A stretch of 64,000 nt of DNA from contig NZ_VHLG01000002.1 in NCBI RefSeq assembly GCF_006516955.1, positions 124,001 through 188,000 of the forward strand. Reading direction: 5' to 3'. Below are positions 43,269 to 64,000 of this stretch, one piece after another (within the stretch, counting starts at the first letter, position 1; the number at the start of each line of letters is the position of its first letter). The notes beneath the pieces are model-generated. The model ran no database searches. It worked only from the letters and a program-made list of their open reading frames with translations, and had not been told where the DNA came from. The translations under genes were made by a program, and so were the position numbers. The DNA comes from Martelella alba. GTDB taxonomy: Bacteria > Pseudomonadota > Alphaproteobacteria > Rhizobiales > Rhizobiaceae.

Positions 43269-44924
43269 ATGACCGAACTGCCAGATCGCCGATCCGAACT
43301 TCTGATGCCTGCCGGCTCGCTGGAACGGCTAAAGGTCGCCGTCTTGTACGGCGCGGATGCCGTCTATCTCGGCACGCCAGACATGTCACTTCGCACCAAG
43401 TCGCAATTCTCGCTCGAAGACGTGAAAGAGGGCATTGCCTTTGCCCATAGCCACAATGTGCGGGTCTATCTGACGCTGAACCTTTTCACCCATAACAAGG
43501 ATATCGAAAAGCTTGGCCTCTATGTCGAAACGCTGAGAGAGATCCGTCCCGACGGCGTCATCATCGCCGATCCGGGCGTGTTCCACTATGTGCGCAAGCA
43601 CGCGCCCGGCATCCCGCTTCACATCTCCACCCAGGCCAATGTCTGCTCCTCGCTGACGGTCGATTTCTGGAAGGATCAGGGCGCCGATCTGGTGGTGCTG
43701 GCCCGCGAGGTCACCTTTGCCGAAATGCGCGAGATCCGGGACCACTGCCCTGATGTCCGGCTGGAAAGCTTCATCCACGGCGCCATGTGCATGACCTATT
43801 CCGGGCGCTGTCTTCTGTCGAATTTCATGGCCGAGCGTGGCGCCAATCAGGGCAATTGCGCCAATTCCTGCCGCTGGCAATACAAGGTTCACATGCGGCT
43901 CAAGGACGGCACCATCAAGGAGCTGCCGCTTTCGCAGGAAAATCTCGAATTGTTCGAATTCGTGCTGGAAGAAGGCTGCCGGCCGGGTGAACTGATGCCG
44001 ATCGAGGAGGATCAGCGCGGCTCCTATATCCTCAATTCCAAAGATATGTGTCTGCTGCCAAAGCTTGACGACCTGCTGTCGATCGGCGTCGACAGCCTCA
44101 AGGTCGAGGGGCGCAACAAGAGCGCCTATTATGTGGCAAGCGTCGCCCGCGCCTATCGCCGGGCCATTGATGCCTGGTATCGGGACCCGGAGAACTGGTC
44201 GCCCGAACCCTATATGGAGGCGCTGGAGGGTGCGGGTAACCGTGGCTATACCATCGCCTTTCATGAGGGCCGGCTGCAGAACTATGCGCATAATTACGAA
44301 AACACCCGCACCACCGCCCCATGGGAATATGCCGGGATCGTGCACGAAGCGCGCGAAGACGGGCTTGTGGTGGAACTGAAGAACCGGCTCGATGCCGGTG
44401 ACGTGCTGGAATTCCTGCCACCCGACGCCGATGCCCAGCCGGTTCTGCTGCGCCTTTACGGCTTCCAGCTGGATGGTGCGCCGGAAGAGACGCTTGAAAC
44501 CGTGGAAGGCGCCCGCAAACACCGCATTTTCGTGCCCTTCACCGCCTTCGATCACGAAGCCGCTGAGGACATGCGGGCGAAATTCCCGCCTTTCACAATC
44601 ATCCGCAAGGAAAGCCTTTTGAGCGAGGAAGAATGGCGGCGGCTGAAACTCGACCGCCTCGCCCAGAAGATCGAGCTGGGCGATACCGCACGCGAGGGCG
44701 CGTGGCGCAACCAGGCGAAAAAGCTTCAGGATGCCATCAGCGCCGAAACCATGGACAAGCGGGCCCGCACCTCACGCCGCGGCGTCGAGGGTTGCTGCGG
44801 CCGCGGCTGCAATGGCTGTCTGATCTTCTGGAACGACCCGGACTATGCAAAGGCCCGCGCCCTTCTGGAAAAGAAGAAGCCGGGTGAAATGCTGGAGCGC
44901 AATATGCGCGAACGGATGGGCTAG
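43269..44924 (+). CDS. U32 family protein (tRNA/rRNA hydroxylase-like, TrhP/RlhA group)
   Basis: 551 residues. The U32 family was named as peptidases, but characterised members TrhP (YegQ) and RlhA hydroxylate RNA. The N-terminal barrel begins ELLMPAGSLERLKVAVLYGADAVYLG, and the U32 signature with its cysteines is ESFIHGAMCMTYSGRCLLSNFM followed by NQGNCANSCRWQYKV. E. coli YegQ has about 450 residues; this one is longer and ends in an unusual cysteine cluster GCCGRGCNGCL near residue 520. The ATG at 43269 is preferred to a 12-codon longer frame. The stop overlaps the end of the convergent iclR gene by four bases. Confidence 0.85.
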   Translation: MTELPDRRSELLMPAGSLERLKVAVLYGADAVYLGTPDMSLRTKSQFSLEDVKEGIAFAHSHNVRVYLTLNLFTHNKDIEKLGLYVETLREIRPDGVIIADPGVFHYVRKHAPGIPLHISTQANVCSSLTVDFWKDQGADLVVLAREVTFAEMREIRDHCPDVRLESFIHGAMCMTYSGRCLLSNFMAERGANQGNCANSCRWQYKVHMRLKDGTIKELPLSQENLELFEFVLEEGCRPGELMPIEEDQRGSYILNSKDMCLLPKLDDLLSIGVDSLKVEGRNKSAYYVASVARAYRRAIDAWYRDPENWSPEPYMEALEGAGNRGYTIAFHEGRLQNYAHNYENTRTTAPWEYAGIVHEAREDGLVVELKNRLDAGDVLEFLPPDADAQPVLLRLYGFQLDGAPEETLETVEGARKHRIFVPFTAFDHEAAEDMRAKFPPFTIIRKESLLSEEEWRRLKLDRLAQKIELGDTAREGAWRNQAKKLQDAISAETMDKRARTSRRGVEGCCGRGCNGCLIFWNDPDYAKARALLEKKKPGEMLERNMRERMG

Positions 44925-45763
44925 CCCTTCCCGTTCCTGACCCTGACCGGACGGCCGAGTTTCTCGCTGATCCGTCCGGCCGCCTTGTGCAGTTCGGCAA
45001 TGATCGGTTCGAGCAGGCGGTGAAATTCCGGACCATCGGAATTGCCGAGACTGATGGCGGCGACTACATCACCGCGCTCGTCATGCACCGGCACGCCGAC
45101 CGCAAAGATCCCGTCGAGATTTTCTTCCAGACAGGTCGCATAACCGGCGATGCGGCAGGTCTCGACTTCCTTCAGGAAATGGCCAATATCCGTGACCGTC
45201 TTGTCGGTATGCCGGCGGAAATCCAGCCGGCGCACACAGGCTTCAAGTTCGTCGCTGTCCATGCCGGCAAGAATGACCTTGCCAAGTGCCGTGGTGTGGA
45301 TCGGCACGGTGCGGCCCGGCTGCGGATTGACTGACATCGGCGCACCGGGCAACGACAGGAAATAGACGATCTCGGTGTCATGCAACACGCCGAGATAGGC
45401 GCTCATCTGAAATTTCATCGAAAGTTGCTGCAATTCTTCCAGTGCAGCATCGGCAAGGGTGCGCTGCATCAGATAGGATTGGCCGGCGCCGTAAAGGCCG
45501 AAACCGACGCGGTAACGCATGGTGCGCGGATCCTGCTCGACGAAATCATGATTTTTCAGCGTCGCCAGAAGCCGATGCACCACGCTTGGCGGGATCGACA
45601 GCCTGCGGCCAAGTTCACGCACGCCGATATCGCCTTCGGTGGCGCTCAGCATCTTGATGATCTGAAGAGCCTTGGAAAGCGACTGATTGGCGTCGAGATC
45701 GGTCGTGGACTTCGGCAGGTCGGTTATTCCTTGTTCGTCCAATTCTAGCAAAGCACTTTCCAA
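44921..45763 (-). CDS. IclR-family transcriptional regulator of the F420-linked cluster
   Basis: 280 residues. An N-terminal winged helix (SLSKALQIIKMLSATEGDIG, SIPPSVVHRLLATLKNHDFV) and a C-terminal ligand-binding domain (VPIHTTALGKVILAGM, GYATCLEENLDGIFAVGVPV) are typical. The frame has no ATG before the DNA-binding domain and a stop codon two codons upstream, so it must start at TTG (45763 or slightly later) or another rare codon. It is the last of ten minus-strand genes, 40 bases after an LLM gene, and probably senses the substrate of this operon. Confidence 0.87.
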   Translation of the reverse strand: MESALLELDEQGITDLPKSTTDLDANQSLSKALQIIKMLSATEGDIGVRELGRRLSIPPSVVHRLLATLKNHDFVEQDPRTMRYRVGFGLYGAGQSYLMQRTLADAALEELQQLSMKFQMSAYLGVLHDTEIVYFLSLPGAPMSVNPQPGRTVPIHTTALGKVILAGMDSDELEACVRRLDFRRHTDKTVTDIGHFLKEVETCRIAGYATCLEENLDGIFAVGVPVHDERGDVVAAISLGNSDGPEFHRLLEPIIAELHKAAGRISEKLGRPVRVRNGKG

Positions 45764-45803
45764 TCGTCAAAATGAGTTAACGTGGCGGGACCGCCCCACC
45801 GCA

Positions 45804-46775
45804 TCATCCAATGTTCATATGATCAAGCAGATGCTGCAGTTCGTCAGCCGTCTTAACACCCGAAATCACCAGTTGATCCAGCCCGACCGTCTCATATTCG
45901 CTCATGCGCCGCGCCGCATCCTCGGCCGTTCCGGCAATGGCGTGGCGGCGGACCACATCATCGGAGACAAGTCTGTCAACGCCGTCCCAGTCGCTATCCG
46001 CATAGGCTTTCGCCAGAGCCTGCTGATCGAGCGTTGCACCGCCCAGCACGATATTCTGTTTGTGATGCATGCCGCGCAGGATGAAAGCCATCTTGCGCCG
46101 AAGACCGTCATAGGCTTTTTCCGCCTCATCCTCGATCGCGCAATAGACAAGGCCGATCCGCTTGCCGCGTCGGCCGGCTTCCGCCTCGCCAGCGGCCACA
46201 TGCTGGAAACAGCTCTCAATGAAAGGCACCGACGTTGCCGCGCTGATCAACAAGCCGTCGGCGTGGGAGCCCGCAAGATGGAGCATCTTCTCGCGTGACG
46301 CAGCAAGGATGATGGGGACGGCGCGTTGCCCGGTTTCCAGCGCCCGGCCGCTGACATTGAAATGGCGTCCAGCAAAGGCCACCGTCTCGCCAGACAGCAG
46401 CGCACGCACCAGATCGACCGTCTCGCGCATCACCGGCAACGGTTTTTCCGCAGCAATGCCGGCGGCTTCAAGGTCACGCGGTGCGCCGACGCCGAGGCAG
46501 AGCGTGACCCGGCCGGGAAACATCTCGTCCAGCGTTGCCGCCGCCATGGCGATATAGACCGGATGCATGCTGAAAGGGCTCATCGCCATCAGCGCGACCT
46601 TGAGCCGTTTCGTCGCCCCGAGAATGGCCGTTGCCCGGACAATCGGCTCGCGCTGGAACAGATGACAGGCGAGCCAGAGCGTATCGACCCCACCCTCGTC
46701 CATCATCTTCGCCATGGCCAGCGTCTCAGTCCAGTTTTCACCGCCTTCCAGCGAGAACCCGATTTCATGCGCCAT
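45804..46775 (-). CDS. LLM-class flavin/F420-dependent oxidoreductase (Mer-like)
   Basis: Luciferase-like TIM-barrel enzyme, 323 residues, resembling the methylenetetrahydromethanopterin reductase-like branch. Visible motifs are AHEIGFSLEGGENWTETLAM at the start, MSPFSMHPVYIAMAAATLDEM, GRVTLCLGVGAPRDLE, and VPIILAASREKMLHLAGSHA. Members use F420 or FMN; which one is not readable here, but the F420 genes 12 kb away make F420 likely. The start at 46775 overlaps the end of the preceding PLP-enzyme gene by 11 bases. The reaction is unknown. Confidence 0.85.
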   Translation of the reverse strand: MAHEIGFSLEGGENWTETLAMAKMMDEGGVDTLWLACHLFQREPIVRATAILGATKRLKVALMAMSPFSMHPVYIAMAAATLDEMFPGRVTLCLGVGAPRDLEAAGIAAEKPLPVMRETVDLVRALLSGETVAFAGRHFNVSGRALETGQRAVPIILAASREKMLHLAGSHADGLLISAATSVPFIESCFQHVAAGEAEAGRRGKRIGLVYCAIEDEAEKAYDGLRRKMAFILRGMHHKQNIVLGGATLDQQALAKAYADSDWDGVDRLVSDDVVRRHAIAGTAEDAARRMSEYETVGLDQLVISGVKTADELQHLLDHMNIG

Positions 46776-48057
46776 CGCCCGTTCCTTCCCGCAATGTGTC
46801 AATCAGCCCGTCAAGCGTATCTTCGCCGTAGATTTCCGCTCCCGTCGGTGTCACGTCCTTCAGACCCGACGAAGTCATGATGGCAACCACTTTTCCATCC
46901 AGCACCAGCCCTCGCGACGTCGCCTCACTGGCGGCGGCAAGACCGGCAACCCCGGAAAATTCCTGATAGAGACCGGTTGCAGCAAGCCGCGCGCGCATCG
47001 CGGCGATCTCGGTTTCAGAGGCAGGAAGCGCCCGGTCGGCCCGGCTTTCAATCGCCACCGCCCCGCGATAACTGCTCACCGCACAGGCAATGCCAACTGC
47101 TATCGAAGCCGGGCCTGAAACCTCAGCTGCCGCTGCATTGGAGGAGACGGCACGCCGCAACGGACCGCGTATCGCCGGTTCGCAGGCATAGATTGTCGGC
47201 AGCCGGTCAACAAGACCGAGCCGCTTCAGCTCCTGAAAACCCTTCCACACGCCAAACAGCATTTCGCCATAGCCGGTCGGCGCCAGGATATGGTCCGGCA
47301 CCGTATGATCAAGCTGGAGAAACAGCTCATAGGCTATGGTCTTGTATCCTTCAGGGCCATAGGGATTGCCGGTGTGAAAGCGCGTCAGATTGCTGGCCGG
47401 CATGAAGCCGGTCTCGTTGACAATGCGACGCAGCACCGGCCAGCGGCGATCCTCGGGCGTGACGACGACACGGGCGCCAAGCGACATCAGAAAATCGCGG
47501 AAGGCGGGCGGCATGCCACCGCTGGTGACCACCACGCACGGCAATCCGGCGCGCGCCGCATAGGCCGCCGCCGCCGCGCCGTGATTGCCGGATGAGGCAA
47601 CGGCAATGCCGCGGGCCCCTGAGGCAATCGCTGCGCTGACGACACAGAGATTGAGCCGGTCCTTATGGCTCCAGGTCGGATTGCGGCTTTCGTCTTTCAG
47701 ATAGAGATTACCGGCAATGCCGATCGAGCGGCCAAATGCTTCGGCAGCAATCAGCGGCGTTCCGCCCTCGCCCATCGATAGGCCCTTTGCCAGAGGCGGC
47801 AAAAGCGGTGCCCAGCGATCGAGACCAGGGCCCGGCGCCTGCTCAAAAAGACGGCGATCCACCGCATCATAGTCGTAATCGATTTCGAGCGGATATTGCA
47901 TCGCCTCGCCCGACGATGCCGGGCAGCCGTCAACGATCACCGGTGTCAACGGGAAGAGACGGCTCGGATCACCGAGCGAACGCTGGCCGATGGCCAGCGA
48001 GCCCGGCGCGATTTCAAGCGCCGGGCCAGCATTATTCAGCTTCGTCTCAGACGACAT
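46765..48057 (-). CDS. Threonine-synthase-like PLP enzyme
   Basis: Fold-type II PLP enzyme, 430 residues. The cofactor lysine is in NPTWSHKDRLN (the family pattern T-x-S-x-K-D-R), the phosphate-binding loop is ASSGNHGAAAAAYAARAGL, and a Ser at the far end (IMTSSGLKD) should bind the pyridine nitrogen. Relatives are threonine synthase, cysteate synthase and ammonia-lyases. It lacks a biosynthetic context, so a catabolic elimination or replacement reaction is more likely than threonine synthesis. The start at 48057 overlaps the preceding LLM gene by 11 bases. Confidence 0.85.
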   Translation of the reverse strand: MSSETKLNNAGPALEIAPGSLAIGQRSLGDPSRLFPLTPVIVDGCPASSGEAMQYPLEIDYDYDAVDRRLFEQAPGPGLDRWAPLLPPLAKGLSMGEGGTPLIAAEAFGRSIGIAGNLYLKDESRNPTWSHKDRLNLCVVSAAIASGARGIAVASSGNHGAAAAAYAARAGLPCVVVTSGGMPPAFRDFLMSLGARVVVTPEDRRWPVLRRIVNETGFMPASNLTRFHTGNPYGPEGYKTIAYELFLQLDHTVPDHILAPTGYGEMLFGVWKGFQELKRLGLVDRLPTIYACEPAIRGPLRRAVSSNAAAAEVSGPASIAVGIACAVSSYRGAVAIESRADRALPASETEIAAMRARLAATGLYQEFSGVAGLAAASEATSRGLVLDGKVVAIMTSSGLKDVTPTGAEIYGEDTLDGLIDTLREGTGDGA

Positions 48058-49054
48058 GCGGCATGACTTCCTCTGCGAAGATCTGCATCTGATCAAGCAG
48101 TTCCGGCACGTCATTGGCAGCGAAATAGAGGCCGAGCAGATGGGTCACACCGGCGGCCCTTGCCTTCAGCGCCTTTTCAACCACCTCTTCCGGCGTGCCG
48201 ATCAGGTTGATCTCCTCCAGATTCTGCGCACCCTCATTCTTCATCGTCGATTTCTTCAGCGAGATCAGATGCTTGCACATCTGGCTCTGGCGGAAACGGG
48301 CATAGGCCTCCTCGCGCGTCTTGCCGATATGGCAGACATATTGCGGCGCGATCTCGATCGTCTCGGGATCACGCCCTGCCTCGGAGGCCATCGTCTTCAG
48401 CTGGTCGACCAGACCGCCAAGCTTGGTGACATCCATGCCGGCCGGGATCCAGCCATCGGCCGCACGGGCGACACGGGCGAGATGTTTCGGGCTGTTGCCG
48501 CCGAAATAGATCGGCAGCTTCTTCTGCATCGGCTTCGGCCACAATTCGACATCGCGGAACTGGTAATATTTGCCGTCGAAACTTGCCGCACGTTCACTGA
48601 ACAAGACGTTGAGCGCATCAACCCCCTCTTCCACCATATCGCCGCGATGGGCGCCGGAATCCGGCCACAGCGCATCAAATTCCTCGCGGTAGGCGCCAAC
48701 GCCGACGCCAATCTCGACGCGGCCGCCGGAAAGATGATCAAGCGTTGCGATCTGCTTGGCGGTGACCACGATATCGCGGCGCATCGGCAGCACCAGAACA
48801 CCGGTGCCAAAGCGCAGCGTCTTGGTATGGGCGGCCAGATAGGCATAGGTGATCAGCGGCTCCCAGAAACGCGGCGGGGTTGGAAATTCCTCACGCACAT
48901 AATGCTGGGTGGTCATGTGATCATTGCCCCAGACCGAGTGATAGCCGTGCTTTTCGGCATGCTGGGCAATCTGAAGAAGGGTTTCGGGTGACGAGAACGG
49001 GATCGGATAGGTCAAACCTTCCATACCCGTGGGCAATCCTGCGCTGACCAGCAT
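48047..49054 (-). CDS. LLM-class flavin/F420-dependent oxidoreductase
   Basis: Luciferase-like enzyme, 335 residues, of the group often annotated as F420-dependent (TIGR03619-like). Motifs are HAEKHGYHSVWGNDHMTTQH, FGTGVLVLPMRRDIVVTAKQ, GRVEIGVGVGAYREEFDALW and KLPIYFGGNSPKHLARVARA. It may accept hydride from reduced F420 or be an FMN monooxygenase. It follows hyuB after two bases, so it is translated with the hydantoinase subunits. Confidence 0.87.
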   Translation of the reverse strand: MLVSAGLPTGMEGLTYPIPFSSPETLLQIAQHAEKHGYHSVWGNDHMTTQHYVREEFPTPPRFWEPLITYAYLAAHTKTLRFGTGVLVLPMRRDIVVTAKQIATLDHLSGGRVEIGVGVGAYREEFDALWPDSGAHRGDMVEEGVDALNVLFSERAASFDGKYYQFRDVELWPKPMQKKLPIYFGGNSPKHLARVARAADGWIPAGMDVTKLGGLVDQLKTMASEAGRDPETIEIAPQYVCHIGKTREEAYARFRQSQMCKHLISLKKSTMKNEGAQNLEEINLIGTPEEVVEKALKARAAGVTHLLGLYFAANDVPELLDQMQIFAEEVMPHVV

Positions 49055-49056
49055 GC

Positions 49057-50844
49057 TTATTCTCCCTCGTTGGCGGTGTCTGCAAGACCCGCTTTTTCAA
49101 TCATGGCCTGCCGCAGCAACGCCGTTTGTTCATGGTTGATGGCGAAAGCCTCATCGAGCACCACGCCATAATCACGCCGGGCCGCAGCAAGCGAGACACG
49201 TCCTTCGGCAACATCGTCCTGAACCTTTTCGACCGGACGCAGGAAGGGGTGACCGATACCGCCGCCGCCGGGCATCTCGATCAAGAGTCGGTCTCCGTAG
49301 GGGACTGTCTGCTGACCCTTGCCGCGCATTTTCTTGCCGGAGGAAACGCTGAGAATGCCCGCTGCACCATCCAGCCCGCCATCGCGGCCGCGCGGGGGGA
49401 AATCGACACGGTCGTAATTGGCACTGATGGCGAAGGGGGCTTCGTCCAGCGTATTGACCTCCATCACCTGACCAAGGCCGCCGCGATAAAGCCCGGCACC
49501 ACCAGAATCGACGCGATATTCCTTGCGCAGGAAGATGATCGGAGATCCGGCCTCGGTGATTTCAACGGGAACGTTGCGAACACCGGAGGGAAAGGCGGTG
49601 GCTGAAAGCCCGTCTTTTCCAGGGCGCGCACCTGCCCCGCCGGAATGGAAACTCATCACGGTGAAGGTCTTGGCCTTCGCTAGCGTTTCGGGACTGGCTT
49701 CGACCCGGCCGGGACCGCCCATGGCAAACAGGTTCCACAGACATGATGTGCCCTCTGCCGGAACCGGCAGATTTTCGCCGGTCTTGGTTTTTGCCTGCGC
49801 CAGGCAGCCGAAGGTGACATCGGGCAGCAATTGCCCGGTGATGTGGCGGGTGGCCACCGGCAGCGGATGCTTGGCATTGAGGATGCAGTTTTCCGGCGTG
49901 CGGATGATGATCGGCGCCAGCGACGCGGCATTGTTCGGCACCTTGGGCGCGACAATGCACTTCACCCCGAAGCTGGTATAGGCCTCCGTATAGCAGAACG
50001 GCACATTGATGCCGAAGGAGGACGGCGGCGAGGTGCCGTCGAAATCGACGATGATGTGATCATCGGCAATCGTCAGCGTCGCGACGAGATCGATCGGCCG
50101 GTCATAGCCGTCAACCCGCATCGTGTTCGAATAGGTGCCGGGCTCAACCGCGGCGATTGCTTCAAGCATCGCCACTTTCGTCTTTTCGAGGATATGTTCG
50201 CCCAGGACATCAAGCGTATCGATGCCGAACTCTTCCATCATCTCGATCAGACGGTTGCCGCCAATATCGTTGCAGGCTGCCAGCGAATAGATATCGCCGA
50301 CGACCTGAACCGGCTCGCGCACATTGGTGCGGATCAGCGCGGTCAGCGTCGCATCCACCGTGCCCTCGCGGGCGAGATACATGAGCGGCACGTGAATGCC
50401 TTCCTCATAGACCTGCCGGGCATCGGGGCCCATGCCGCGCCCGCCGACATCGACCACATGGCAGGTGCAGGCGAACAGGCCCACCACCTGGCCGCCGAAA
50501 AAGGTCGGCGTCACCACGGTGAAGTCATGCAGATGGCCGGTTCCCTTCCATGGATCATTGGTGATGAAACTGTCACCCGGCTTCATCGTCTCGACGGGAA
50601 AGTCATGGAGGAAGTGAACGACGGCGCGCGCCATGGAATTGACGTGACCGGGGGTGCCGGTCACCGCCTGGGCCAGCATTTCCCCCTTCGTATTGAAGAC
50701 ACCGGCCGAAACATCGCCGGCTTCGCGGGTGGAGGTGGAAAAGCCGGTCCGGATCAATGCCTGCGCCTGTTCCTCAACAACCGAGATCAGCCGGTCCCAC
50801 ATGATCTGGAACTGAATGACCGAGAAAGTATTATGCTCTGACAT
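49057..50844 (-). CDS. hyuB: Hydantoinase B / oxoprolinase family subunit
   Basis: 595 residues, the partner of HyuA in ATP-dependent opening of cyclic amides (5-oxoproline, N-methylhydantoin) or in related carboxylases. Typical sequences are GVFNTKGEMLAQAVTGTPGH, DSFITNDPWKGTGHLHDFTV, ACTCHVVDVGGRGMGPDARQ and the C-terminal LLIEMPGGGGIGHPFLRPVE. The start overlaps the hyuA stop by one base (TAATG). It sits between hyuA and an LLM gene. Confidence 0.93.
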   Translation of the reverse strand: MSEHNTFSVIQFQIMWDRLISVVEEQAQALIRTGFSTSTREAGDVSAGVFNTKGEMLAQAVTGTPGHVNSMARAVVHFLHDFPVETMKPGDSFITNDPWKGTGHLHDFTVVTPTFFGGQVVGLFACTCHVVDVGGRGMGPDARQVYEEGIHVPLMYLAREGTVDATLTALIRTNVREPVQVVGDIYSLAACNDIGGNRLIEMMEEFGIDTLDVLGEHILEKTKVAMLEAIAAVEPGTYSNTMRVDGYDRPIDLVATLTIADDHIIVDFDGTSPPSSFGINVPFCYTEAYTSFGVKCIVAPKVPNNAASLAPIIIRTPENCILNAKHPLPVATRHITGQLLPDVTFGCLAQAKTKTGENLPVPAEGTSCLWNLFAMGGPGRVEASPETLAKAKTFTVMSFHSGGAGARPGKDGLSATAFPSGVRNVPVEITEAGSPIIFLRKEYRVDSGGAGLYRGGLGQVMEVNTLDEAPFAISANYDRVDFPPRGRDGGLDGAAGILSVSSGKKMRGKGQQTVPYGDRLLIEMPGGGGIGHPFLRPVEKVQDDVAEGRVSLAAARRDYGVVLDEAFAINHEQTALLRQAMIEKAGLADTANEGE

Positions 50845-56244: not shown

Positions 56245-56283
56245 TTTCTCTCCGTCGCTGCAGCCATTCCCGCTCCTGCCCGC

Positions 56284-56297
56284 CAGGTCCGGACCTG
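56284..56297. promoter_or_regulatory. 14-bp palindrome upstream of livH
   Basis: CAGGTCCGGACCTG is a perfect 14-base palindrome, 40 bases before the livH start codon. It could be a site for the IclR-family regulator encoded in this operon, or another factor. The IclR consensus was not checked. Confidence 0.45.
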
Positions 56298-56483
56298 ACA
56301 AAGATCAGTTCCGGCCGGCATTTTTTGATTTCGCGAGTTGATCGGCGAATTTGAACTTGGGCTTTGGGCATCGCACCAAAAACAAAACTGCCATGTTCAC
56401 TCCAAATATTACAGACATTCTCTGAAATATTAAAAGGATTACTTAGATCCAAAAAGAATGAAAAAATCACTTGCGCATCTGTT

Positions 56484-56495: not shown

Positions 56496-56544
56496 TTGTG
56501 TGCTCGTCGACATCATGTCAATATAAAAATCAGAGTGGACCTCA

Positions 56545-56579
56545 CAAATTGCATTCACTGCCCTGATATACGCAATTTG
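56545..56579. promoter_or_regulatory. 8-bp inverted repeat before the binding-protein gene
   Basis: CAAATTGC (56545-56552) and GCAATTTG (56572-56579) are perfect arms 27 bases apart centre to centre. The right arm ends 24 bases before the ATG of the binding-protein gene. This could be a repressor site over the promoter. Confidence 0.4.
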
Positions 56580-56603
56580 TACTTGTCCCGATAAGAGGAA
56601 CAG

Positions 56604-57737
56604 ATGAAAATACTATCAGCTACAATGTTTGCAGCCGCAATTTTAGGCACGCCTATGGTTGCAAATGCCGAAAATATCGTCATCGGCATCTCAAATCCCT
56701 ATACCGGCCCGGCTGCCATGGCGGCCGAGCGTGAAAAATGGGGCATTGATCTGGCGGTGAAGGAAATCAACGAAAAGGGCGGCGTCCTTGGCGAGCAGAT
56801 CGAAGTGCTGCCGATGGATAATCGCTGCAATCCTTCGGACGCCGTCAACGTTGCCAACCGTCTGGTCGAGGCCAAGGTTGTCGCCATTATCGGCGCCCAT
56901 TGCTCGACCGCTGGCCTCGCCACCATGCCGATCATCGAAGAGGCCGGCATCCCGATGGTTTCCGGCGTTGCTTCCAGCCCCAAGATCACCGAGCTTTCCG
57001 GCGTCGGCGGCAATAAGTGGGCCTTCCGCATCAACCCCTCCGACCAGGCGATGATGGAAACGCTGGTCGGCTATCTCGGTGAAAAGAGTGATTTCAAGAA
57101 GGTCGCGATCATTGCCGAAGACTCAGATTTCGGCCGCGGCGGCGCCACCTCCTTCGAACCGCTGGCAAAGGATGCCGGAATCGAGATCCTGTCGACTGAT
57201 TTCGTGCCGCAGCAGACCCCGGACTTTACCCCGGTTCTGACCCGCGTTGCCCGTGAAAAGCCCGACGCGATCGCGCTGTTTCAGCTTGGCGGCGACCAGC
57301 TGAACATGCTGCGCAACGCCATGCAGCTCGGCCTTGCCATCCCCTATACGGGCCGTGCGGAACTGGGCGGTGAAAACATGCAGATCATCGAGGCAGGCGG
57401 CATGGAAGGCTCGGTTTCAGCCTGGTCCTATTCGGCAGAAATCCACAGCGAGCTCAATGATGCCTTCGTCAAGAACATCGAGGCAGATCACGACATGAAG
57501 CCGGTGCTGCAGACCTGGGCTGGCTATGATTCCGTGCGCATCATCGCCCAGGCGATCGAAGAGGCCGGCAGCGCCGACCCCGCGGCCATTCGTGATGCAC
57601 TGCAGAACATCAAGTTCACCAATGTTCTCGGCAAGGAAGTCACCTTCGACGACCACAATCAGGCCGGCAAGGTTGTCGTCATTCAGGGCGTGAAAGACCG
57701 CGCCGTCGATATCCTCGAACTCGCCGACGTCAAGTAA
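56604..57737 (+). CDS. Branched-chain-type ABC transporter substrate-binding protein (LivJ/LivK family)
   Basis: Periplasmic receptor, 377 residues. The signal peptide MKILSATMFAAAILGTPMV is cleaved near NAEN. IVIGISNPYTGPAAMAAERE, VLPMDNRCNPSDAVNVANRL and AIIGAHCSTAGLATMPIIEE are family marks. It belongs with livHMGF, although it is divergently transcribed, so the importer is split over two transcripts. The family takes up amino acids, amides, urea and aromatic acids, so the name does not fix the substrate. A GC-rich hairpin follows the stop. Confidence 0.93.
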   Translation: MKILSATMFAAAILGTPMVANAENIVIGISNPYTGPAAMAAEREKWGIDLAVKEINEKGGVLGEQIEVLPMDNRCNPSDAVNVANRLVEAKVVAIIGAHCSTAGLATMPIIEEAGIPMVSGVASSPKITELSGVGGNKWAFRINPSDQAMMETLVGYLGEKSDFKKVAIIAEDSDFGRGGATSFEPLAKDAGIEILSTDFVPQQTPDFTPVLTRVAREKPDAIALFQLGGDQLNMLRNAMQLGLAIPYTGRAELGGENMQIIEAGGMEGSVSAWSYSAEIHSELNDAFVKNIEADHDMKPVLQTWAGYDSVRIIAQAIEEAGSADPAAIRDALQNIKFTNVLGKEVTFDDHNQAGKVVVIQGVKDRAVDILELADVK

Positions 57738-57749
57738 ATCCGAGATCAA

Positions 57750-57773: not shown

Positions 57774-57967
57774 CCCCGAATTCCGCGTAAACCATGCTTG
57801 CCAAGCCCTTCGGTGAAACATCGGCTTTTCGCGGCGATACCGGAAAAATATCCTCAACTCACGGTGCAACGGAAAAAAACAGCGCGCCGATTGGTCCTAG
57901 ATTGCAGTGAGTGCCACCCGGTCTTTCGACGTTTGGGGTGGAACGTCATTGAAAGGATAGAACTGCA

Positions 57968-59146
57968 ATGCAAAATTCCAGCATGGGAACGGCGTCCGTC
58001 TGGGCCGGCGAGGAAGATCTCTTCGCCGAGGGCGCCATCTGCACACCGGTCTTCAATTCCGTAGCCTTCGGCTATGAGGACATGAACGAATGGTTTGACG
58101 TGGCGCTTGGCAAGAAGCCGGGCCATATTTACTCACGCAACACCAATCCCACCGTACGCGTGCTGGAAAACAAGATCCGCCTTCTGGATGGCGGCGATGA
58201 TGCCACGAGCTTCTCCACCGGCATGGCGGCGATCAGCAACACGCTGTTTGCGCTTCTTGCCGCCGGCGACCGCGTTGTCGCGATCAAGGACACCTATGGC
58301 GGCGCCAACAAGGTGTTCATCGAATTTCTGCCGCGCATGAATGTCGCGGTCAGCCTCTGCGATACCTCCGATTTCGATCAGATCGAGGCCGAAGTCGCCA
58401 AGGGCTGCAAGGTGCTTTATCTCGAAAGCCCGACCAATCCGACGCTGAAGGTGGTCGATATCGAACGGCTGGCGAAAGCCGCCCATGCCGTGGGTGCCAT
58501 CGTGATCGTCGACAACACCTTTGCCACGCCGGTCAACCAGAAGCCGCTGTCGCTCGGCGCCGATCTCGTCGTCTATAGCGCCACCAAATATCTGAACGGC
58601 CATTCCGATGTGATGGGCGGACTGGTGACCGGACGGCAAGACCTGATCGACGCCATCTATCACTATCGCGAGATCACCGGCGCAACACTGCACGCGCAAT
58701 CGGCCTACATGATCCTGCGCGGCATGAAGACGCTTGATCTGCGCATCAACAGGCACAATGAAAATGCCATGAAGGTTGCCACCTTCCTTGCCGCCCATCC
58801 CAAGGTCGATCAGGTCTTCTATCCCGGCCTGCCGGACCATCCGGGCCATGAAACGGCCAAGAAGCAGATGACCGGCGGCTTTGGCGGTATGATGAGCTTT
58901 TCGCTGAAGGGCGGCTTTGAGCCGGTGGTCACCGTGCTGGAAAATCTGCGCTACGCCCACAAGGCGGCCAGCCTCGGCTCCGTCGGCACGCTGGCCGGCC
59001 CGCCAAAAACCACAAGCCATGTCGAGCTGACGGCCGAAGAACGCGCCGCCGCCGGCATTCCCGAAGGACTGATCCGCTATTCTGTCGGCATCGAAGATGC
59101 CGATGACCTGATCGCGGATCTTCAACACGCGCTTTCCCTCTTGTGA
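57968..59146 (+). CDS. Cystathionine gamma-synthase family PLP enzyme
   Basis: Fold-type I PLP enzyme of the Cys/Met metabolism family, 392 residues. Marks are SRNTNPTVRVLENKIRLLDG, FSTGMAAISNTLFALLAAGD, VYLESPTNPTLKV (read here as LYLESPTNPTLK), DNTFATPVNQKPLSLGADLV, and the cofactor lysine in VVYSATKYLNGHSDVMGG. These enzymes make or break C-S or C-gamma bonds (cystathionine synthase or lyase, methionine gamma-lyase). AAGGA precedes the start. Its place beside F420 and hydantoinase genes suggests a catabolic role, possibly on a sulfur-containing intermediate. Confidence 0.9.
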   Translation: MQNSSMGTASVWAGEEDLFAEGAICTPVFNSVAFGYEDMNEWFDVALGKKPGHIYSRNTNPTVRVLENKIRLLDGGDDATSFSTGMAAISNTLFALLAAGDRVVAIKDTYGGANKVFIEFLPRMNVAVSLCDTSDFDQIEAEVAKGCKVLYLESPTNPTLKVVDIERLAKAAHAVGAIVIVDNTFATPVNQKPLSLGADLVVYSATKYLNGHSDVMGGLVTGRQDLIDAIYHYREITGATLHAQSAYMILRGMKTLDLRINRHNENAMKVATFLAAHPKVDQVFYPGLPDHPGHETAKKQMTGGFGGMMSFSLKGGFEPVVTVLENLRYAHKAASLGSVGTLAGPPKTTSHVELTAEERAAAGIPEGLIRYSVGIEDADDLIADLQHALSLL

Positions 59147-59150
59147 CGCG

Positions 59151-59171
59151 GGACGCGCGATAAGCGCGTCC
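59151..59171 (+). repeat. Hairpin between the PLP-enzyme gene and fgd
   Basis: GGACGCGC (59151-59158) and GCGCGTCC (59164-59171) form a perfect 8-bp stem with a 5-base loop just after the stop codon. A second hairpin GGGCGG/CCGCCC follows at 59241-59256, close to the fgd start. Together they may attenuate or protect the fgd message. No T-run. Confidence 0.45.
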
Positions 59172-59275
59172 AATTCAGGGGAAACGACACATGACTGCCG
59201 TCCGGATGGCGATTGCCACCGGATGGCCGATGATCACTAAGGGCGGCAATCCGCCCTCAGCAAGGACCATGATTG

Positions 59276-60280
59276 ATGCTTACATTTGGCTACAAGGCCT
59301 CGGCCGAGCAGTTTTCCCCTTCCGATCTTCTGCGCTTCGGCGTTGCTGCCGAAAAGGCAGGTTTTGATTCCGTTTTCATCAGCGACCATTTCCAGCCCTG
59401 GCGTCACACGGGCGGTCACGCGCCGTTCTCCATGGCCTTTCTTGGTGCCTTGGGTGCATCGACCTCGCGCATCAAGATGGGCACCAGCGTGCTGACGCCG
59501 ACCTTCCGCTACCACCCTTCCGTTGTTGCCCAGGCCTTTGCCACGCTCGGCTCCATGTTTCCCGAACGCATCATTCTCGGTATTGGCACCGGCGAATCCC
59601 TAAACGAAGTCCCGGCGACCTGCGTCGAATGGCCGGACGGCAAGGAACGTTTTGCCCGGCTGCGCGAATCGGTCCGCCTGATGCGGCAATTGTGGCGCGA
59701 GGAGCGTGTCTCCTTTGAAGGCGACTATTACCGCACCGAAAATGCCACCATTTACGACCGCCCGGAAAAGATGGTGCCGATCTATGTCGCGGGCGCCGGG
59801 CCGATGATCAGCCGCTATGCCGGCCGCTTTGCCGATGGCTTCATCTGCACCTCCGGCAAGGCGCCCTCGCTTTATCTCGACACGCTTCTGCCCAAGGTCG
59901 CAGAAGGCATGGCGATGGAAAAGCGCAACCCCGACGCGCTCGACAAGATGATCGAGATGAAGGTATCCTTTGACGAAAGTCAGGAACAGGCGCTGGAAGA
60001 CACGCGCTTCTGGGCCGCTCTTGCGCTTTCCCCGGAAGAGAAGATGTCTGTCGAAAACCCGCAGGCCATGGAAGACCTCGCTGACCGGCTGCCGATCGAA
60101 CGTGTTGCCAGCCGCTGGATCGTCTCGAACGACCCCGAAGTCCATGTCGAGCGCATCCGCCCCTATGTCGAGATGGGCTTCAGGCATCTGGTCTTTCACG
60201 CACCGGGTTTCGATCAGGAACGCTTCCTCACGCTCTATGCCAGGGACGTGCTGCCACGCCTGCGCAGGGAATTTTGCTGA
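59276..60280 (+). CDS. fgd: F420-dependent glucose-6-phosphate dehydrogenase (FGD)
   Basis: Oxidises glucose 6-phosphate to 6-phosphogluconolactone and passes hydride to F420, making F420H2. It has 334 residues against 336 in mycobacterial FGD1. The start LTFGYKASAEQF, VSDHFQPWRH-like ISDHFQPWRHTGGHAPFS, GTSVLTPTFRY, GIGTGESLNE, ERFARLRESVRLMRQLW, ADGFICTSGK and HLVFHAPGFDQERF match FGD1 as I recall it. Counterparts of its key residues are present: D37, H38 and W42 (D39, H40, W44), E107 (E109), and the phosphate-binding K195, K256 and R280 (K198, K259, R283). The ATG at 59276 has AAGGA nine bases upstream. FGD is best known from actinobacteria. It lies 44 bases before the F420 synthesis gene. 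Confidence 0.93.
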   Translation: MLTFGYKASAEQFSPSDLLRFGVAAEKAGFDSVFISDHFQPWRHTGGHAPFSMAFLGALGASTSRIKMGTSVLTPTFRYHPSVVAQAFATLGSMFPERIILGIGTGESLNEVPATCVEWPDGKERFARLRESVRLMRQLWREERVSFEGDYYRTENATIYDRPEKMVPIYVAGAGPMISRYAGRFADGFICTSGKAPSLYLDTLLPKVAEGMAMEKRNPDALDKMIEMKVSFDESQEQALEDTRFWAALALSPEEKMSVENPQAMEDLADRLPIERVASRWIVSNDPEVHVERIRPYVEMGFRHLVFHAPGFDQERFLTLYARDVLPRLRREFC

Positions 60281-60324
60281 GACAAACCGCAGGACATGCG
60301 GCTATGAACAGGGACAGGCAAGGC

Positions 60325-63300
60325 ATGATCACAGCGGTGGTTCCGGTCAAATCGTTCAGCGTAGCCAAATCCCGGCTTGCAGACATTTTGCCGCCGGATC
60401 TGCGGGCCAGGCTCGCCAGAGCCATGGCGGGCGACGTTCTTGCCGTTCTCACGCAGATTGCGGAAATTGATGCTGTTCTGGTGGTCACCGAAGATCCTTC
60501 GGTGGCCCGCCTTGCGCGCGCCTCTGGTGCCGCGGTGCTGCTAGAACCCGGCCTCAACGGCTATAATGCCGCAACTGAAGCTGCAGCAAGGTTTCTCGGC
60601 CCCGACAGGACCATGCTGCTTGTGCCGGGCGATCTGCCTGCCCTTGCCGCTGACGATATTCGCAGATTGATCGCTGCTCATGGTGAGGCTCCCTGCCTCA
60701 CACTTGTGCCGGACCGGATAAAGGACGGCACCAATGCGCTGATGGTAACACCGGCTGATACGCTTTCCTTCTGCTTCGGCCCGGCGAGCTTTGATCGGCA
60801 TCGCAAGGCCGCACAAAAGGCCGGCCTTGCCGTTCAGAGCCTTGAACTTGAGACCATCGGCTTCGACCTCGACCGTCCTGAAGATCTCGCCGCCGTGGCG
60901 CAGCTCCGGCTGGGACCGCAAAGCCGCGCCGTATTCGATGTGCTGGAACATGACGGACTGACCACCAACAACAAGAACATCCGCCGCCCCTTCGGGTCAG
61001 AGACGGATGCCATCTCCCGAAGGGAAAAGACCATGACGATCACCCGTGAAGATATCCTCGACAGGACAGCCAGCGGTGCCCGTATCACCGATGACGAAGC
61101 GCTTGCACTTCTCGATTTCGACGATCTCGTCCCGCTCACCGAAGCGGCCCGGACACTGCGCGATGCAGGCCATGGCGATATCGTCACCTTCTCTCGCAAG
61201 GTATTCATTCCGCTGACGCATCTGTGTCGCGATGTCTGCCATTACTGCACCTTTGCCCATCCGCCGAAAAAGGGCGAAAGCGCTTTCATGACACCGGCCG
61301 AGGTTCTGGCGGTGGCCGAGGCCGGCAAGCGCGCTGGCTGCAAGGAAGCCCTGTTCACGCTCGGCGACAAGCCGGAGCTTCGCTACCGCGCCGCGCGCGA
61401 GCAGCTTGCAGAACTCGGCTATGCCGATACGGTTTCCTACATCGAAGCCATGGCGGCGATGGTGCTGAAGGAAACGGGCCTGCTGCCGCATGTCAATGGC
61501 GGGGTGATGACGGCGGACGAAATCGCCCGACTGCGCAAGGTTTCGGTTTCGCAGGGCATCATGCTGGAAACCGTCTCGACGCGGCTGTCGGAGCGCGGCG
61601 GCCCGCATTTCGGCTCCCCCGACAAACTGCCCGCTCCGCGCCTGCAGATGATGCGGCAAGCAGGTGCTGCCGCAATTCCCTTCACCTCCGGCATTCTGAT
61701 CGGAATCGGTGAAACCCGTCAGGAGCGGATCGAATCTCTGCTGGCTTTGCGCGATATCCACGAAAATCACGGCGGCCACATTCAGGAAATCATCATCCAG
61801 AATTTCCGCGCCAAGGCCGACACCAAGATGGCCAATGCCCCGGAACCGGATCTTGACGAGCAGGTCTGGACAATCGCCATGGCGCGGCTGATTTTTGGCC
61901 CAACGATGAATATCCAGTCGCCGCCCAACCTGCGGCCTGAAGAACTGGCAGCCCTGATCAATGCCGGCATCAACGACTGGGGCGGCATTTCCCCGGTGAC
62001 GCCCGACCATGTGAACCCGGAAGCGCCCTGGCCGCAGATCATGGCGCTGGAGCGGGAGACCGAAAAGGCGGGCAAGATCCTGACCGAGCGGCTCGCCGCC
62101 TATCCGCCTTATGCGCTTGATGCGGCCCGCTGGCTCGATGCCGGCCTTCACGGCGCGCTTTTGCGCCATCAGGACAGCGAGGGTTACGCCCGGCCGGATA
62201 ACTGGATTGCAGGATCGGGCACGCAGCCGCCAACGCTTTTTGCAAAGCCCCCGGCCATGCGCGCCAATGACACGCTTCACGCCATCATCGACCGCGCCTT
62301 TGCCGGAAAGCGCCTGTCGGAAGACGAAATCGTCCGGCTGTTTGCCGCACGCGGTGGAGAATATGAATTCGTCCGGGCCAAAGCCGATGAACTGCGCGAG
62401 GCGATTTGCGGCGATGATGTTTCCTATGTCGTCACCCGCAACATCAACTACACCAATATCTGCTATTTCAAGTGCCAGTTCTGCGCCTTCTCCAAGGGCA
62501 AGATGAGCGAGAACCTGCGCGGCCGCCCCTATAATCTGCCACTGGAAGAGATCCGCCGCCGGGTCGTCGAAGCCTGGCATCGCGGCGGCACCGAGGTTTG
62601 CCTGCAGGGTGGCATTCATCCCGAATATACCGGCCAAACCTATCTCGACATCTGCGAGACGATCCGCAAGGCCGAGCCCGCCATGCATATTCACGCCTTC
62701 TCGCCGCTGGAAGTGTGGCAGGGCGCAGAAACGCTGGGCCTTTCCGTACCTGATTTCCTCGTCGCACTGAAGGAAGCGGGCCTAAGCTCCATGCCCGGAA
62801 CGGCCGCGGAAATCCTTGATGACGAGGTGCGGCGCGATCTCTGCCCCGACAAGATCAACACCGCCCAATGGATGGAGGTGGTGGAAGCCGCCCACATGGC
62901 CGGTATCCGCACCACCGCCACCATCATGTTCGGCCATATCGACCGGCCGGTGCACTGGGCGCGGCATATTCTGCGCGTGCGCGAAATCCAGGAGAAAACC
63001 GGCGGCTTTACCGAATTTGTCGGCCTGCCCTTCGTGCCGATGGAAACGCCGATCTATCTGAAGAACCGCTCGCGTCTGGGTCCGACCTATCGCGAGGCGA
63101 TGCTGATGCATGCCGTCGCACGGCTGGCGCTCAACCCGGTCCTCACCAATATCCAGGCCTCCTGGGTCAAGCTCGGCGCGGAAGGTCTGTCCGATTGTCT
63201 GACGGCGGGCGCCAATGATGCCGGCGGCACGCTGATGGAAGAAACCATCACCCGGTCAGCAGGTGCCGTTCACGGCCAGGAAATGGCGCCGCACGAATTT

Positions 63301-63447
63301 GTCGAGATGATCCGCGCGCTCGGCCGCACGCCGCGGCTGCGCAACACGCTTTACGAAACGGCGCCCGAAAGCCGCATGCAGCGCGCTTTCCAGGCGCCGC
63401 CGCTGGAGCCGTCCATCAATACACTGGCATCGAAATATGACCGCTGA
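60325..63447 (+). CDS. fbiC: CofC-CofG-CofH fusion (phospholactate-type guanylyltransferase plus FO synthase)
   Basis: One frame of 1,040 residues holds three F420-synthesis activities. Residues 1-225 are a CofC/FbiD nucleotidyltransferase (ITAVVPVKSFSVAKSRLADI, VPGDLPALAADDI, PDRIKDGTNALMVTP), which activates 2-phospholactate, phosphoenolpyruvate or 3-phosphoglycerate. About 237-600 is CofG with radical-SAM cysteines C301, C305 and C308; about 640-1040 is CofH with C713, C717 and C720. CofG plus CofH (FbiC) make the deazaflavin FO from tyrosine and 5-amino-6-ribitylaminouracil. A well-spaced ribosome site (AGGGA, 61021) precedes an in-frame ATG at 61033, so an FbiC-only form of 804 residues may also be made. 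ATG 60304 is an alternative start. Confidence 0.93.
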   Translation: MITAVVPVKSFSVAKSRLADILPPDLRARLARAMAGDVLAVLTQIAEIDAVLVVTEDPSVARLARASGAAVLLEPGLNGYNAATEAAARFLGPDRTMLLVPGDLPALAADDIRRLIAAHGEAPCLTLVPDRIKDGTNALMVTPADTLSFCFGPASFDRHRKAAQKAGLAVQSLELETIGFDLDRPEDLAAVAQLRLGPQSRAVFDVLEHDGLTTNNKNIRRPFGSETDAISRREKTMTITREDILDRTASGARITDDEALALLDFDDLVPLTEAARTLRDAGHGDIVTFSRKVFIPLTHLCRDVCHYCTFAHPPKKGESAFMTPAEVLAVAEAGKRAGCKEALFTLGDKPELRYRAAREQLAELGYADTVSYIEAMAAMVLKETGLLPHVNGGVMTADEIARLRKVSVSQGIMLETVSTRLSERGGPHFGSPDKLPAPRLQMMRQAGAAAIPFTSGILIGIGETRQERIESLLALRDIHENHGGHIQEIIIQNFRAKADTKMANAPEPDLDEQVWTIAMARLIFGPTMNIQSPPNLRPEELAALINAGINDWGGISPVTPDHVNPEAPWPQIMALERETEKAGKILTERLAAYPPYALDAARWLDAGLHGALLRHQDSEGYARPDNWIAGSGTQPPTLFAKPPAMRANDTLHAIIDRAFAGKRLSEDEIVRLFAARGGEYEFVRAKADELREAICGDDVSYVVTRNINYTNICYFKCQFCAFSKGKMSENLRGRPYNLPLEEIRRRVVEAWHRGGTEVCLQGGIHPEYTGQTYLDICETIRKAEPAMHIHAFSPLEVWQGAETLGLSVPDFLVALKEAGLSSMPGTAAEILDDEVRRDLCPDKINTAQWMEVVEAAHMAGIRTTATIMFGHIDRPVHWARHILRVREIQEKTGGFTEFVGLPFVPMETPIYLKNRSRLGPTYREAMLMHAVARLALNPVLTNIQASWVKLGAEGLSDCLTAGANDAGGTLMEETITRSAGAVHGQEMAPHEFVEMIRALGRTPRLRNTLYETAPESRMQRAFQAPPLEPSINTLASKYDR
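61021..61035 (+). promoter_or_regulatory. Internal ribosome site and ATG at the CofC/FbiC junction
   Basis: AGGGA at 61021-61025 is seven bases before an in-frame ATG at 61033, exactly where the CofC domain ends and the FbiC part (MTITREDILDR) begins. This would be a normal start for a stand-alone FbiC and may be a relic of two genes that fused, or still work. Confidence 0.5.
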
Positions 63448-63477
63448 CCTTCCGCAACCGTTTGATCGGCATTCCGC

Positions 63478-64000
63478 ATGAGCACGCCCCTCACCCTCAC
63501 CCCAATCGATGGTCTTCCTTTGATCAAAAAGGGCGATGACCTCGCCGCGCTGCTGATTGCCGCCATGGCAGAAGACAAGCTTGAGCCCAAAGCCGGCGAC
63601 GTGCTGGTTCTGGCACAGAAAATCGTCTCCAAGGCGGAAGGCCGCGCTGTCAAACTGTGCGATGTGACCCCAGGCCCGCAGGCGCAAGAGCTTGCCGCTG
63701 CGATCGGCAAGGATGCGCGCATGGTCGAGCTGATCCTCGGCGAAAGCCGCCGGGTGGTGCGCACCGGCCCCAACCTGCTGATCGTCGAAAACCGCAACGG
63801 GCTGATCATGGCCAATGCCGGGATCGACCGCTCGAATGTCGCCGAAAATGCCGAGGAAATCGCGCTTTTGCTGCCGCTCGATCCGGACGCGAGCGCTGCG
63901 CGGCTGCGCACGGCGCTGTCGGACCATTTCGGCATGGCGATTGCCGTACTGATCAACGATTCCTTCGGCAGGCCCTGGCGGCGCGGCACGGCTGGCACAG
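63478..64000 (+). CDS. cofE: F420-0:gamma-glutamyl ligase CofE (3' partial)
   Basis: Adds glutamate to F420-0. The first 174 codons are visible and the frame is open at the right edge. Family marks are PIDGLPLIKKGDDLAALLIA at the start, AGDVLVLAQKIVSKAEGRAV, ILGESRRVVRTGPNLLIVEN, NGLIMANAGIDRSNVAENAE and INDSFGRPWRRGTAG. It could be CofE alone or the N-terminal half of an FbiB-type fusion; the window ends too soon to tell. It starts 30 bases after the fusion gene, in the same direction, so fgd, the fusion and cofE probably form one unit. Confidence 0.93.
   Translation, partial: MSTPLTLTPIDGLPLIKKGDDLAALLIAAMAEDKLEPKAGDVLVLAQKIVSKAEGRAVKLCDVTPGPQAQELAAAIGKDARMVELILGESRRVVRTGPNLLIVENRNGLIMANAGIDRSNVAENAEEIALLLPLDPDASAARLRTALSDHFGMAIAVLINDSFGRPWRRGTAGT

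Follow-up and report, generated by a model that had tools for sequence, protein, structure and literature searches.

Gene content of the island

The DNA analysed here (the window) is a stretch of 64,000 nucleotides from Martelella alba (G000:C22:124001-188000), and the subject of this study is a gene island at its right-hand end, which joins two units. The first unit, block A, has 11 genes and encodes a Liv-type periplasmic binding protein (SBP), an ATP-binding cassette (ABC) importer (LivHMGF), the hydantoinase/oxoprolinase subunits HyuA and HyuB, two luciferase-like monooxygenase (LLM) family oxidoreductases (LLM2161, of the TIGR03619 family, and the Mer-like LLMmer), a PALP-fold pyridoxal phosphate (PLP) enzyme and an IclR-type regulator. 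The second, the F420 unit, provides the cofactor F420, an uncommon electron carrier, and includes a further LLM (the fourth of the island if FGD is counted), termed LLM4, which lies beyond the window end. All five F420 biosynthesis activities (CofC, CofD, CofE, CofG and CofH) are encoded; CofC, CofG and CofH pass their NCBIfam cut-offs, and CofE, scored only on the part inside the window, reaches 178.8 against the TIGR01916 cut-off of 180.65 and passes the Pfam cut-off on that same part. The single-frame CofC-CofG-CofH fusion occurs also in three genomes of another family (G366, G331 and G343; loci L041-L043). Both units are also present in a second Martelella genome, G005, where they are 90-99% identical to those of the window.

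A first-pass annotation, made from the letters of the window, had listed the IclR, LLM, PLP enzyme, HyuAB, Liv, FGD, CofC-G-H and CofE genes of a 19-kb locus ending at position 64000, and profile matches recovered every one of them. The genes are as described, but the remainder of cofE and the LLM4, M24 and CofD genes follow in the same direction and the island extends about 12 kb past the window end at 64000, which rules out the window as the entire locus. The gene order and overlaps that it described are likewise present, although the long overlaps shrink to about 10 bases, since some starts in the list of open reading frames lay too far upstream (LLMmer 46802, PALP 48114; LivF/G/M/H spanning 52922-56301) and were refined by comparison with relatives to about 46775 for LLMmer, 48057 for PALP and 56244 for LivH. 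The features are collected in Table 1.

Table 1. Genes and features of the Martelella island; positions are those of the window, and equivalent positions are given beyond its end
Feature	Position	Strand	Basis
IclR-type regulator, final gene of block A	44921..45763	-	PF01614, PF09339; 58-61% orthologue closes block A in G031, G520, G585
LLMmer, Mer-like LLM oxidoreductase	45804..46775 (refined start)	-	PF00296
PALP-fold PLP enzyme, threonine-synthase-like	46765..48057 (refined start)	-	PF00291; resembles threonine synthase chains
LLM2161, LLM oxidoreductase	48047..49054	-	TIGR03619, 215.7 bits (cut-off 166.9)
HyuB, hydantoinase B/oxoprolinase	49057..50844	-	PF02538; caprolactamase beta model below cut-off
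HyuA, hydantoinase A/oxoprolinase, ATP-dependent family	50844..52925	-	PF01968, PF05378, PF19278; CapA model 507.6 (cut-off 1000)
LivF-type ABC ATPase	52922..53704	-	PF00005; UrtE and LivF models best
LivG-type ABC ATPase	53640..54422	-	PF00005, PF12399; LivG model best
LivM-type permease	54419..55366	-	PF02653
LivH-type permease	55363..56244 (start refined against G031)	-	PF02653
Inverted repeat in the LivH-SBP divergent region, possible operator (weak)	56543..56581		
SBP, Liv-type periplasmic binding protein, outer gene of block A	56604..57737	+	PF13458; 72-73% orthologue in G031, G520, G585
CGS, PLP enzyme, cystathionine gamma-synthase family	57968..59146	+	NF006097, 661 (cut-off 600)
FGD	59273..60280	+	TIGR03554, 489.2 (cut-off 420)
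CofC-CofG-CofH fusion (2-phospholactate guanylyltransferase and FO synthase)	60274..63447	+	TIGR03552, TIGR03550, TIGR03551, NF006687, above cut-off
CofE, F420-0:glutamate ligase	63478..64000, cut by window; ends at equivalent 64242	+	PF01996
LLM4	equivalent 64375-65292	as CofE	TIGR03619, 263.7 (cut-off 166.9)
DoeA-like M24 hydrolase	equivalent 65297-66472	as CofE	
CofD	after M24; ends at equivalent 67479	as CofE	above Pfam cut-off
Nucleoside hydrolase	equivalent 67589-68545	-	best models UriH (uridine-preferring) and RihA (pyrimidine-specific), below cut-off
Second SBP-LivHMGF importer	beyond window, between nucleoside hydrolase and PuuE-like hydrolase		
PuuE-like hydrolase (PuuE/polysaccharide-deacetylase type)	equivalent 73339-74247		
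S58 peptidase	beyond window, after PuuE-like hydrolase		

A U32 peptidase-family gene (43233-44924), found in 3 of 13 Martelella genomes, flanks the island. Base composition gives no clear edge of the island, and an empty site was not demonstrable in the other Martelella, the island-free genome with the U32 gene having it on a contig of 5.6 kb. The single named relative found for the first LLM is from Martelella sp. HB161492 (93%).

Conservation of block A and its junction with the F420 unit

Block A is kept in order and orientation, at 58-78% identity, in G031, G520 and G585, three genomes of another genus of the same family, so that five genomes of two genera carry it. Chance does not account for the hyu-liv part, given that all 11 genes recur in unchanged order in a second genus. 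A search of the 223 family genomes for LLMmer itself at E<=1e-35 gave four, G000, G031, G520 and G585. Block A is best read as a self-contained, patchily distributed catabolic operon. Between the two Martelella genomes, dN/dS was 0.02-0.13 in all 14 genes tested, indicating purifying selection.

Neither CGS nor FGD lies beside block A in G031, G520 or G585, for which reason block A was defined as the 11 genes. Hence the single joint locus of the first-pass annotation divides: hyu, liv, LLM, PALP and IclR genes form a conserved unit, whereas CGS and FGD belong with the F420 unit. FGD goes with the F420 unit and not with block A, and CGS was ruled out as a member of the hyu pathway of block A. 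The inverted repeat at 56543-56581 is present in both Martelella and not in the three relatives; its arms face each other nowhere else in the window, and single arms occur at chance level (4 found, 2.7 expected).

Association of block A and its LLM oxidoreductases with F420

CofG/H is found in 4 of the 5 block A genomes, compared with 47 of the 397 genomes of the order; of the 13 Martelella genomes, the two with a match are G000 and G005. G031 and G520 carry their F420 genes elsewhere in the genome, cofG and cofH being separate there.

The relatives of the LLMs follow the same distribution. With p values that treat the genomes as independent though they are related, and with G585 outside the sets tested, relatives of LLM2161 (E<=1e-45) occur in 3/47 CofGH-positive genomes, the source genome among them, and in 0/350 of the other genomes of the order (p=0.0016); relatives of LLMmer (E<=1e-20) in 11/40 F420-positive and 0/40 CofGH-negative genomes (p=2.2e-4, or 8.9e-4 without the two Martelella); and relatives of LLM4 (E<=1e-40) in 4/47 CofGH-positive genomes and 2/350 others (p=0.002). 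For LLMmer (80 genomes) the positive set was made up of 38 genomes with CofGH together with G352 and G275, which have other F420 genes only, and the negatives were judged on CofGH alone. These same two genomes are the LLM4 holders without CofG/H, even at E<=1e-5: G352 has FGD and CofC/D/E beside LLM4, and G275 has FGD and CofE elsewhere.

LLM2161 and LLM4 pass the cut-off of the TIGR03619 F420-dependent LLM family, whereas LLMmer fails it (70.1 vs 166.9) and also falls below the two cut-offs for Mer, the methylene-H4MPT reductase (153.1 vs 276 and 133.3 vs 348.7). The solved chains nearest to LLMmer are nevertheless methylenetetrahydromethanopterin reductases, and Mer is the best solved match of LLM2161 as well. 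An LLM tree had weak deep branches and was not used for cofactor claims. It is the distribution of relatives that points to F420 as the probable cofactor of the block A LLMs. The PALP protein stays below the cut-offs of the NCBIfam threonine synthase models. At the limits set, none of the three LLMs had a match on plasmids.

Cousins of LLM2161 and LLMmer lie adjacent a second time in G031, G520 and G585 (L138, L147 and L148), together with an IclR gene, XDH-type subunits and M24. In G242 such an LLM pair is accompanied by XDH-type subunits, M24, M20, IclR and a PALP relative and lies about 7-21 kb from cofGH. The F420 genome G209 has a hydantoinase-A-type gene at a distance of about 4 kb from an LLMmer relative (28%).

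F420 loci in other genomes of the order

Outside Martelella, 38 F420 loci of 20 kb each (two shorter) from 36 genomes and 24 genera were compared with 26 controls, stretches picked by position on contigs of F420 genomes at a distance of at least about 100 kb from cofGH. The count omits both Martelella, the plasmid loci L057-L066 and the flanks L087-L093, as well as 13 (chiefly from one large genus) of the 49 non-Martelella F420 genomes known; among the omitted flanks, L090 has an M24 match and L091 dihydroorotase-like and PxpA matches, none of these being accompanied by an LLM match. A non-FGD LLM gene is present in 32/38 F420 loci and 0/26 controls (p=1.5e-12), an amide hydrolase of the query set in 23/38 and 1/26 (p=1.6e-6), and both together in 22/38 and 0/26 (p=2.8e-7). 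Counted by genus (n=24), the corresponding numbers are 21, 15 and 14.

Three kinds of loci recur. In the first (10/38 loci), a TIGR03842 LLM accompanies cofG, cofH, cofD, cofE and npdG, seven of these loci having a dihydropyrimidinase; loci of this kind on Leisingera plasmids also carry an NCS1 nucleobase transporter, an M20 hydrolase, an omega-aminotransferase and a transhydrogenase. The arrangement, with a TIGR03842 LLM in the cof operon near dihydropyrimidinase and M20, is seen in L062 (Leisingera caerulea plasmid), L133 (L. aquaemixtae plasmid), L073-L078 and L081, some of which have the omega-aminotransferase and the NCS1 transporter. These loci look like F420H2-dependent reductive pyrimidine catabolism.

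The second kind (n=15) has an LLM that shares more than 50% identity with the TIGR03619 LLM of Sinorhizobium meliloti pSymA, accompanied by CoA-transferase A (15/15), PALP (12/15), M20 (11/15) and XDH (9/15); the pSymA cluster also holds a Liv importer, npdG, a transhydrogenase and a dihydroorotase-like gene. On the large plasmids of S. meliloti R28 (pSymA, L063) and S. fredii (L057), the clusters contain F420 genes, Liv, npdG, CoA transferases and a TIGR03619-type LLM, along with M20, transhydrogenase, an XDH-type enzyme and a dihydroorotase-like gene. The window genome itself (L091, 8.8-11 kb, on G000:C22 some 43 kb beyond CofD) has a dihydroorotase-like gene 70% identical to that of the pSymA cluster and, close to it, a PxpA-like gene.

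The third kind combines LLM4-M24 with Liv. In G051 and G275 it includes a nucleoside hydrolase, a PuuE-like hydrolase and a class III aminotransferase; G352 is similar, the PuuE-like gene not being in the stretch read, and G247 is similar without the nucleoside hydrolase. G051, G352 and G247 have an aldehyde dehydrogenase in these loci. The components of this third kind resemble those of a reductive nucleobase pathway. Neither the aminotransferase nor the aldehyde dehydrogenase had a match in the stretches examined near the Martelella island. A further combination is seen on an Agrobacterium rubi plasmid (L059), in which a PxpABC-like oxoprolinase, an LLM, cof genes, npdG and two class III aminotransferase-type genes form one cluster.

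With regard to F420 recharging, 5 of the 38 loci have FGD, 30 have npdG, none has both and three have neither. Of 11 genomes checked, npdG was above cut-off in five, and the other six have FGD in the loci read. As both enzymes make F420H2, this favours a reductive use of the cofactor. A 2021 review assigns Fgd to alphaproteobacterial producers in addition to Fno (PMC8498797), whereas none of the loci read here has both.

Some genomes have partial F420 gene sets. In L110 (G275), L111 (G041) and L112 (G402), genes for a TIGR03842 LLM, FGD and CofE lie beside an ABC importer of the FecB/FecCD/ATPase type, assigned by Pfam in L111 and by relatives at 74, 79 and 58-59% in L110 and L112, and the three genomes have no CofG/H match at E<=1e-5; the importer is a candidate uptake system for F420 or FO. 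The TIGR03842 cut-off is passed in 17 genomes of the order without a CofGH match, of which three loci were read. Likewise, L107 (G352), with CofC, CofD, CofE, FGD, LLM4 and M24 and no CofG/H at E<=1e-5, possibly uses FO from other organisms.

Proposed function of the island

Taken together, the Martelella locus is real, conserved and linked to F420, and it is very probably an F420-dependent catabolic locus, as the first-pass annotation had proposed; the presence of CofG/H in most block A genomes and the restriction of LLM relatives to genomes with F420 genes in two sets agree with that proposal. In the pathway we envisage, the SBP-Liv system would import a nitrogen-containing cyclic amide (hydantoin-, imide- or lactam-like), on which, or on the products of which, LLM2161 and LLMmer would act with F420/F420H2, one or both of them reducing an unsaturated N-heterocycle or its product. 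HyuAB would open the ring amide at the expense of ATP, the PALP enzyme would act on the resulting amino acid by eliminating ammonia or some other group, and the IclR protein would sense the substrate. The F420 unit would supply the carrier through CofC-G-H, CofD and CofE, recharge it by FGD and contribute its own LLM4 and DoeA-like M24 hydrolase. The enzymatic steps are suggested by family membership, their order is a guess, and the reductive direction and the substrate class are likewise predictions from sequence. As a whole, this explanation (two units, the chemistry of block A and the F420 supply) is the best available, with a probability of roughly 60%, while the specific sequence of ring reduction by F420H2 followed by hydrolysis falls somewhat short of an even chance.

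Several observations weigh against this explanation. G585 has block A with both LLMs and no CofG/H match, though at 79% completeness the genome is only a possible exception. LLMmer is under the cut-off of all 25 NCBIfam models listed. Relatives of HyuA and PALP are common on plasmids (191 and 10 records, counted regardless of F420 genes), and two HyuA-relative plasmid regions have no LLM or cof gene annotated. The first-pass annotation would have taken adjacency of the F420 and hyu-liv genes here alone as a refutation. To the letter this applies, as hyu and cof were seen as neighbours in the two Martelella and in 0/38 of the other F420 loci, but block A and F420 genes still share a genome in another genus, which has a different set with split cofG and cofH. 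An operator common to block A and the F420 unit was looked for and none was found, and a hairpin after the SBP gene, noticed by eye, suggests separate transcripts. Moreover, the queries of the 38-locus count were derived from F420 loci, which biases it toward such loci, and related genomes are not independent. The gene following the LLM2161 cousin in L138, L147 and L148, all of one genus, encodes a PF01613 flavin reductase; this keeps flavin mononucleotide (FMN) possible and, for those cousins, makes the strongest case against F420.

Alternative explanations

The last observation bears on the cofactor. The block A LLMs might be FMNH2-dependent monooxygenases of an ordinary hydantoin or lactam pathway, the F420 genes serving something else; many FMN enzymes of the LLM superfamily are indeed among the match lists, and the flavin reductase of the cousins fits such a role. 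However, neither the window nor the block A copies of G031, G520 and G585 yielded a PF01613-type reductase, and none was found beside the cousin pair of G242 (L087); LLM2161 passes the TIGR03619 cut-off, relatives of both LLMs occur only together with F420 genes in the two sets tested, and the best solved match of both is an F420 enzyme, Mer, all of which makes FMN dependence unlikely. If the cofactor is F420, the LLMs might still run oxidatively, like FGD or Adf, passing electrons from the substrate onto F420 in an oxidative locus. The LLM matches do include FGD and an F420-dependent alcohol dehydrogenase, and two LLMs per operon would allow one oxidation and one reduction; but the FGD or npdG found in 35/38 F420 loci would be needless if the pathway itself made F420H2, and both LLMs are similar to Mer, which works as a reductase in methanogens. 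An oxidative locus is, in our view, likewise improbable.

The ring-opening step could also be misread, HyuAB being instead an ATP-dependent carboxylase or an enzyme of open-chain compounds, such as acetophenone carboxylase, with no ring amide opened. Acetophenone carboxylase models do match both subunits below cut-off, but the caprolactamase models score higher for both (507.6 vs 279.2 and 179.9 vs 85.0), and block A has only two such subunits where acetophenone carboxylase has more; this possibility appears very slight. Finally, block A and the F420 unit may have become adjacent by accident in one Martelella lineage and be functionally unrelated, which would agree with an adjacency confined to two closely related Martelella and with the likely separate transcripts. 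The occurrence of CofG/H in 4/5 block A genomes of two genera, as against 47/397 in the order, renders such an accident distinctly unlikely.

Comparison with known pathways

The reductive uric acid pathway (XdhD, YgfK/UacX, SsnA, HyuA, YgeY and YgeX), described for anaerobes (PMC12507026), resembles the proposed scheme in that an N-heterocycle is reduced, amidohydrolases, one of them a hydantoinase, open the ring, and a PALP-fold lyase comes last. Its HyuA is a PF01979 amidohydrolase, whereas Martelella has the ATP-dependent HyuAB, and no XDH-type (XdhD-like) enzyme was matched in the Martelella stretches L002, L003, L004, L035 and L036. For the reduction of yanthine in Chloroflexota, the same paper puts forward a luciferase-family enzyme that depends on F420, for which the in vitro assay failed (PMC12507026).

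With the reductive pyrimidine (Pyd) pathway, the L062 and L133 islands share nucleobase uptake, ring opening, a ureido hydrolase and an omega-aminotransferase; in these two islands the cof operon closes with an F420-type LLM, and the stretch shown has no annotated PydA-type reductase. Block A has neither a dihydropyrimidinase nor an NCS1 gene, and Martelella has instead the nucleoside hydrolase, PuuE-like hydrolase and M24 beyond the window, which, together with LLM4, read like a reductive nucleobase pathway with non-Pyd hydrolases. No dihydropyrimidinase match was found in block A, the F420 unit or the nucleoside genes, the nearest Martelella candidates being a 39% match at 17.5 kb in L036 (G005) and the dihydroorotase-like match in L091. 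The caprolactamase CapAB is alike in HyuA/HyuB architecture and is the best NCBIfam match of both subunits, although the scores of 507.6 (HyuA) and 179.9 (HyuB) are about half or less of the cut-offs (1000). The caprolactamase pathway is not known to involve F420 or an LLM.

Bacterial LLM enzymes driven by Fgd-generated F420H2 are described in the 2021 review, which proposes degradation as a role of F420 in other phyla, states that outside Actinobacteria no F420H2-dependent reductases had been experimentally investigated, allows for two Alphaproteobacteria only a possible minor or niche role, and in section 23 leaves what F420 does in Alphaproteobacteria to experiments to come (PMC8498797). 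In the open-licence PMC literature (titles, abstract starts and passages), no paper on F420 islands of this sort in Alphaproteobacteria was found. It is tempting to suggest, with odds just under even, that F420 serves in Alphaproteobacteria mainly as a reductant for N-heterocycle catabolism and that mobile islands pair F420 supply and LLM reductases with interchangeable ring hydrolases (HyuAB, PxpABC, dihydropyrimidinase, dihydroorotase-like, M20, M24 and PuuE-like); Martelella would then be a double example, with a ring-amide and a nucleoside block, and loci of the TIGR03842 type would represent a pyrimidine reductase pathway dependent on F420H2. Should the proposed chemistry hold, the Martelella locus would be a new variant of reductive heterocycle catabolism, and F420H2 would join NAD(P)H and ferredoxin as a reductant in nucleobase and cyclic-amide catabolism. 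The locus and its relatives give a testable claim on the role of F420, with defined genes, named strains and few substrate classes.

Ectoine utilisation (EutB, EutD/DoeA, Ehu) has a similar pairing of PALP and M24, which was seen on Bosea and Priestia plasmids with no LLM or cof gene annotated. The Martelella M24 protein is under the DoeA cut-off (437.1 vs 613) and aligns with DoeA along its length (343.8 bits); since ectoine hydrolase is its closest relative, an ectoine-like cyclic amidine is a possible alternative substrate. Haloarchaea make F420, and three haloarchaeal regions with M24 relatives have no LLM annotated alongside. The pairing on the Priestia plasmid also includes a CGS-family gene, and by analogy the CGS gene of Martelella, which goes with the F420 unit, may belong with M24.

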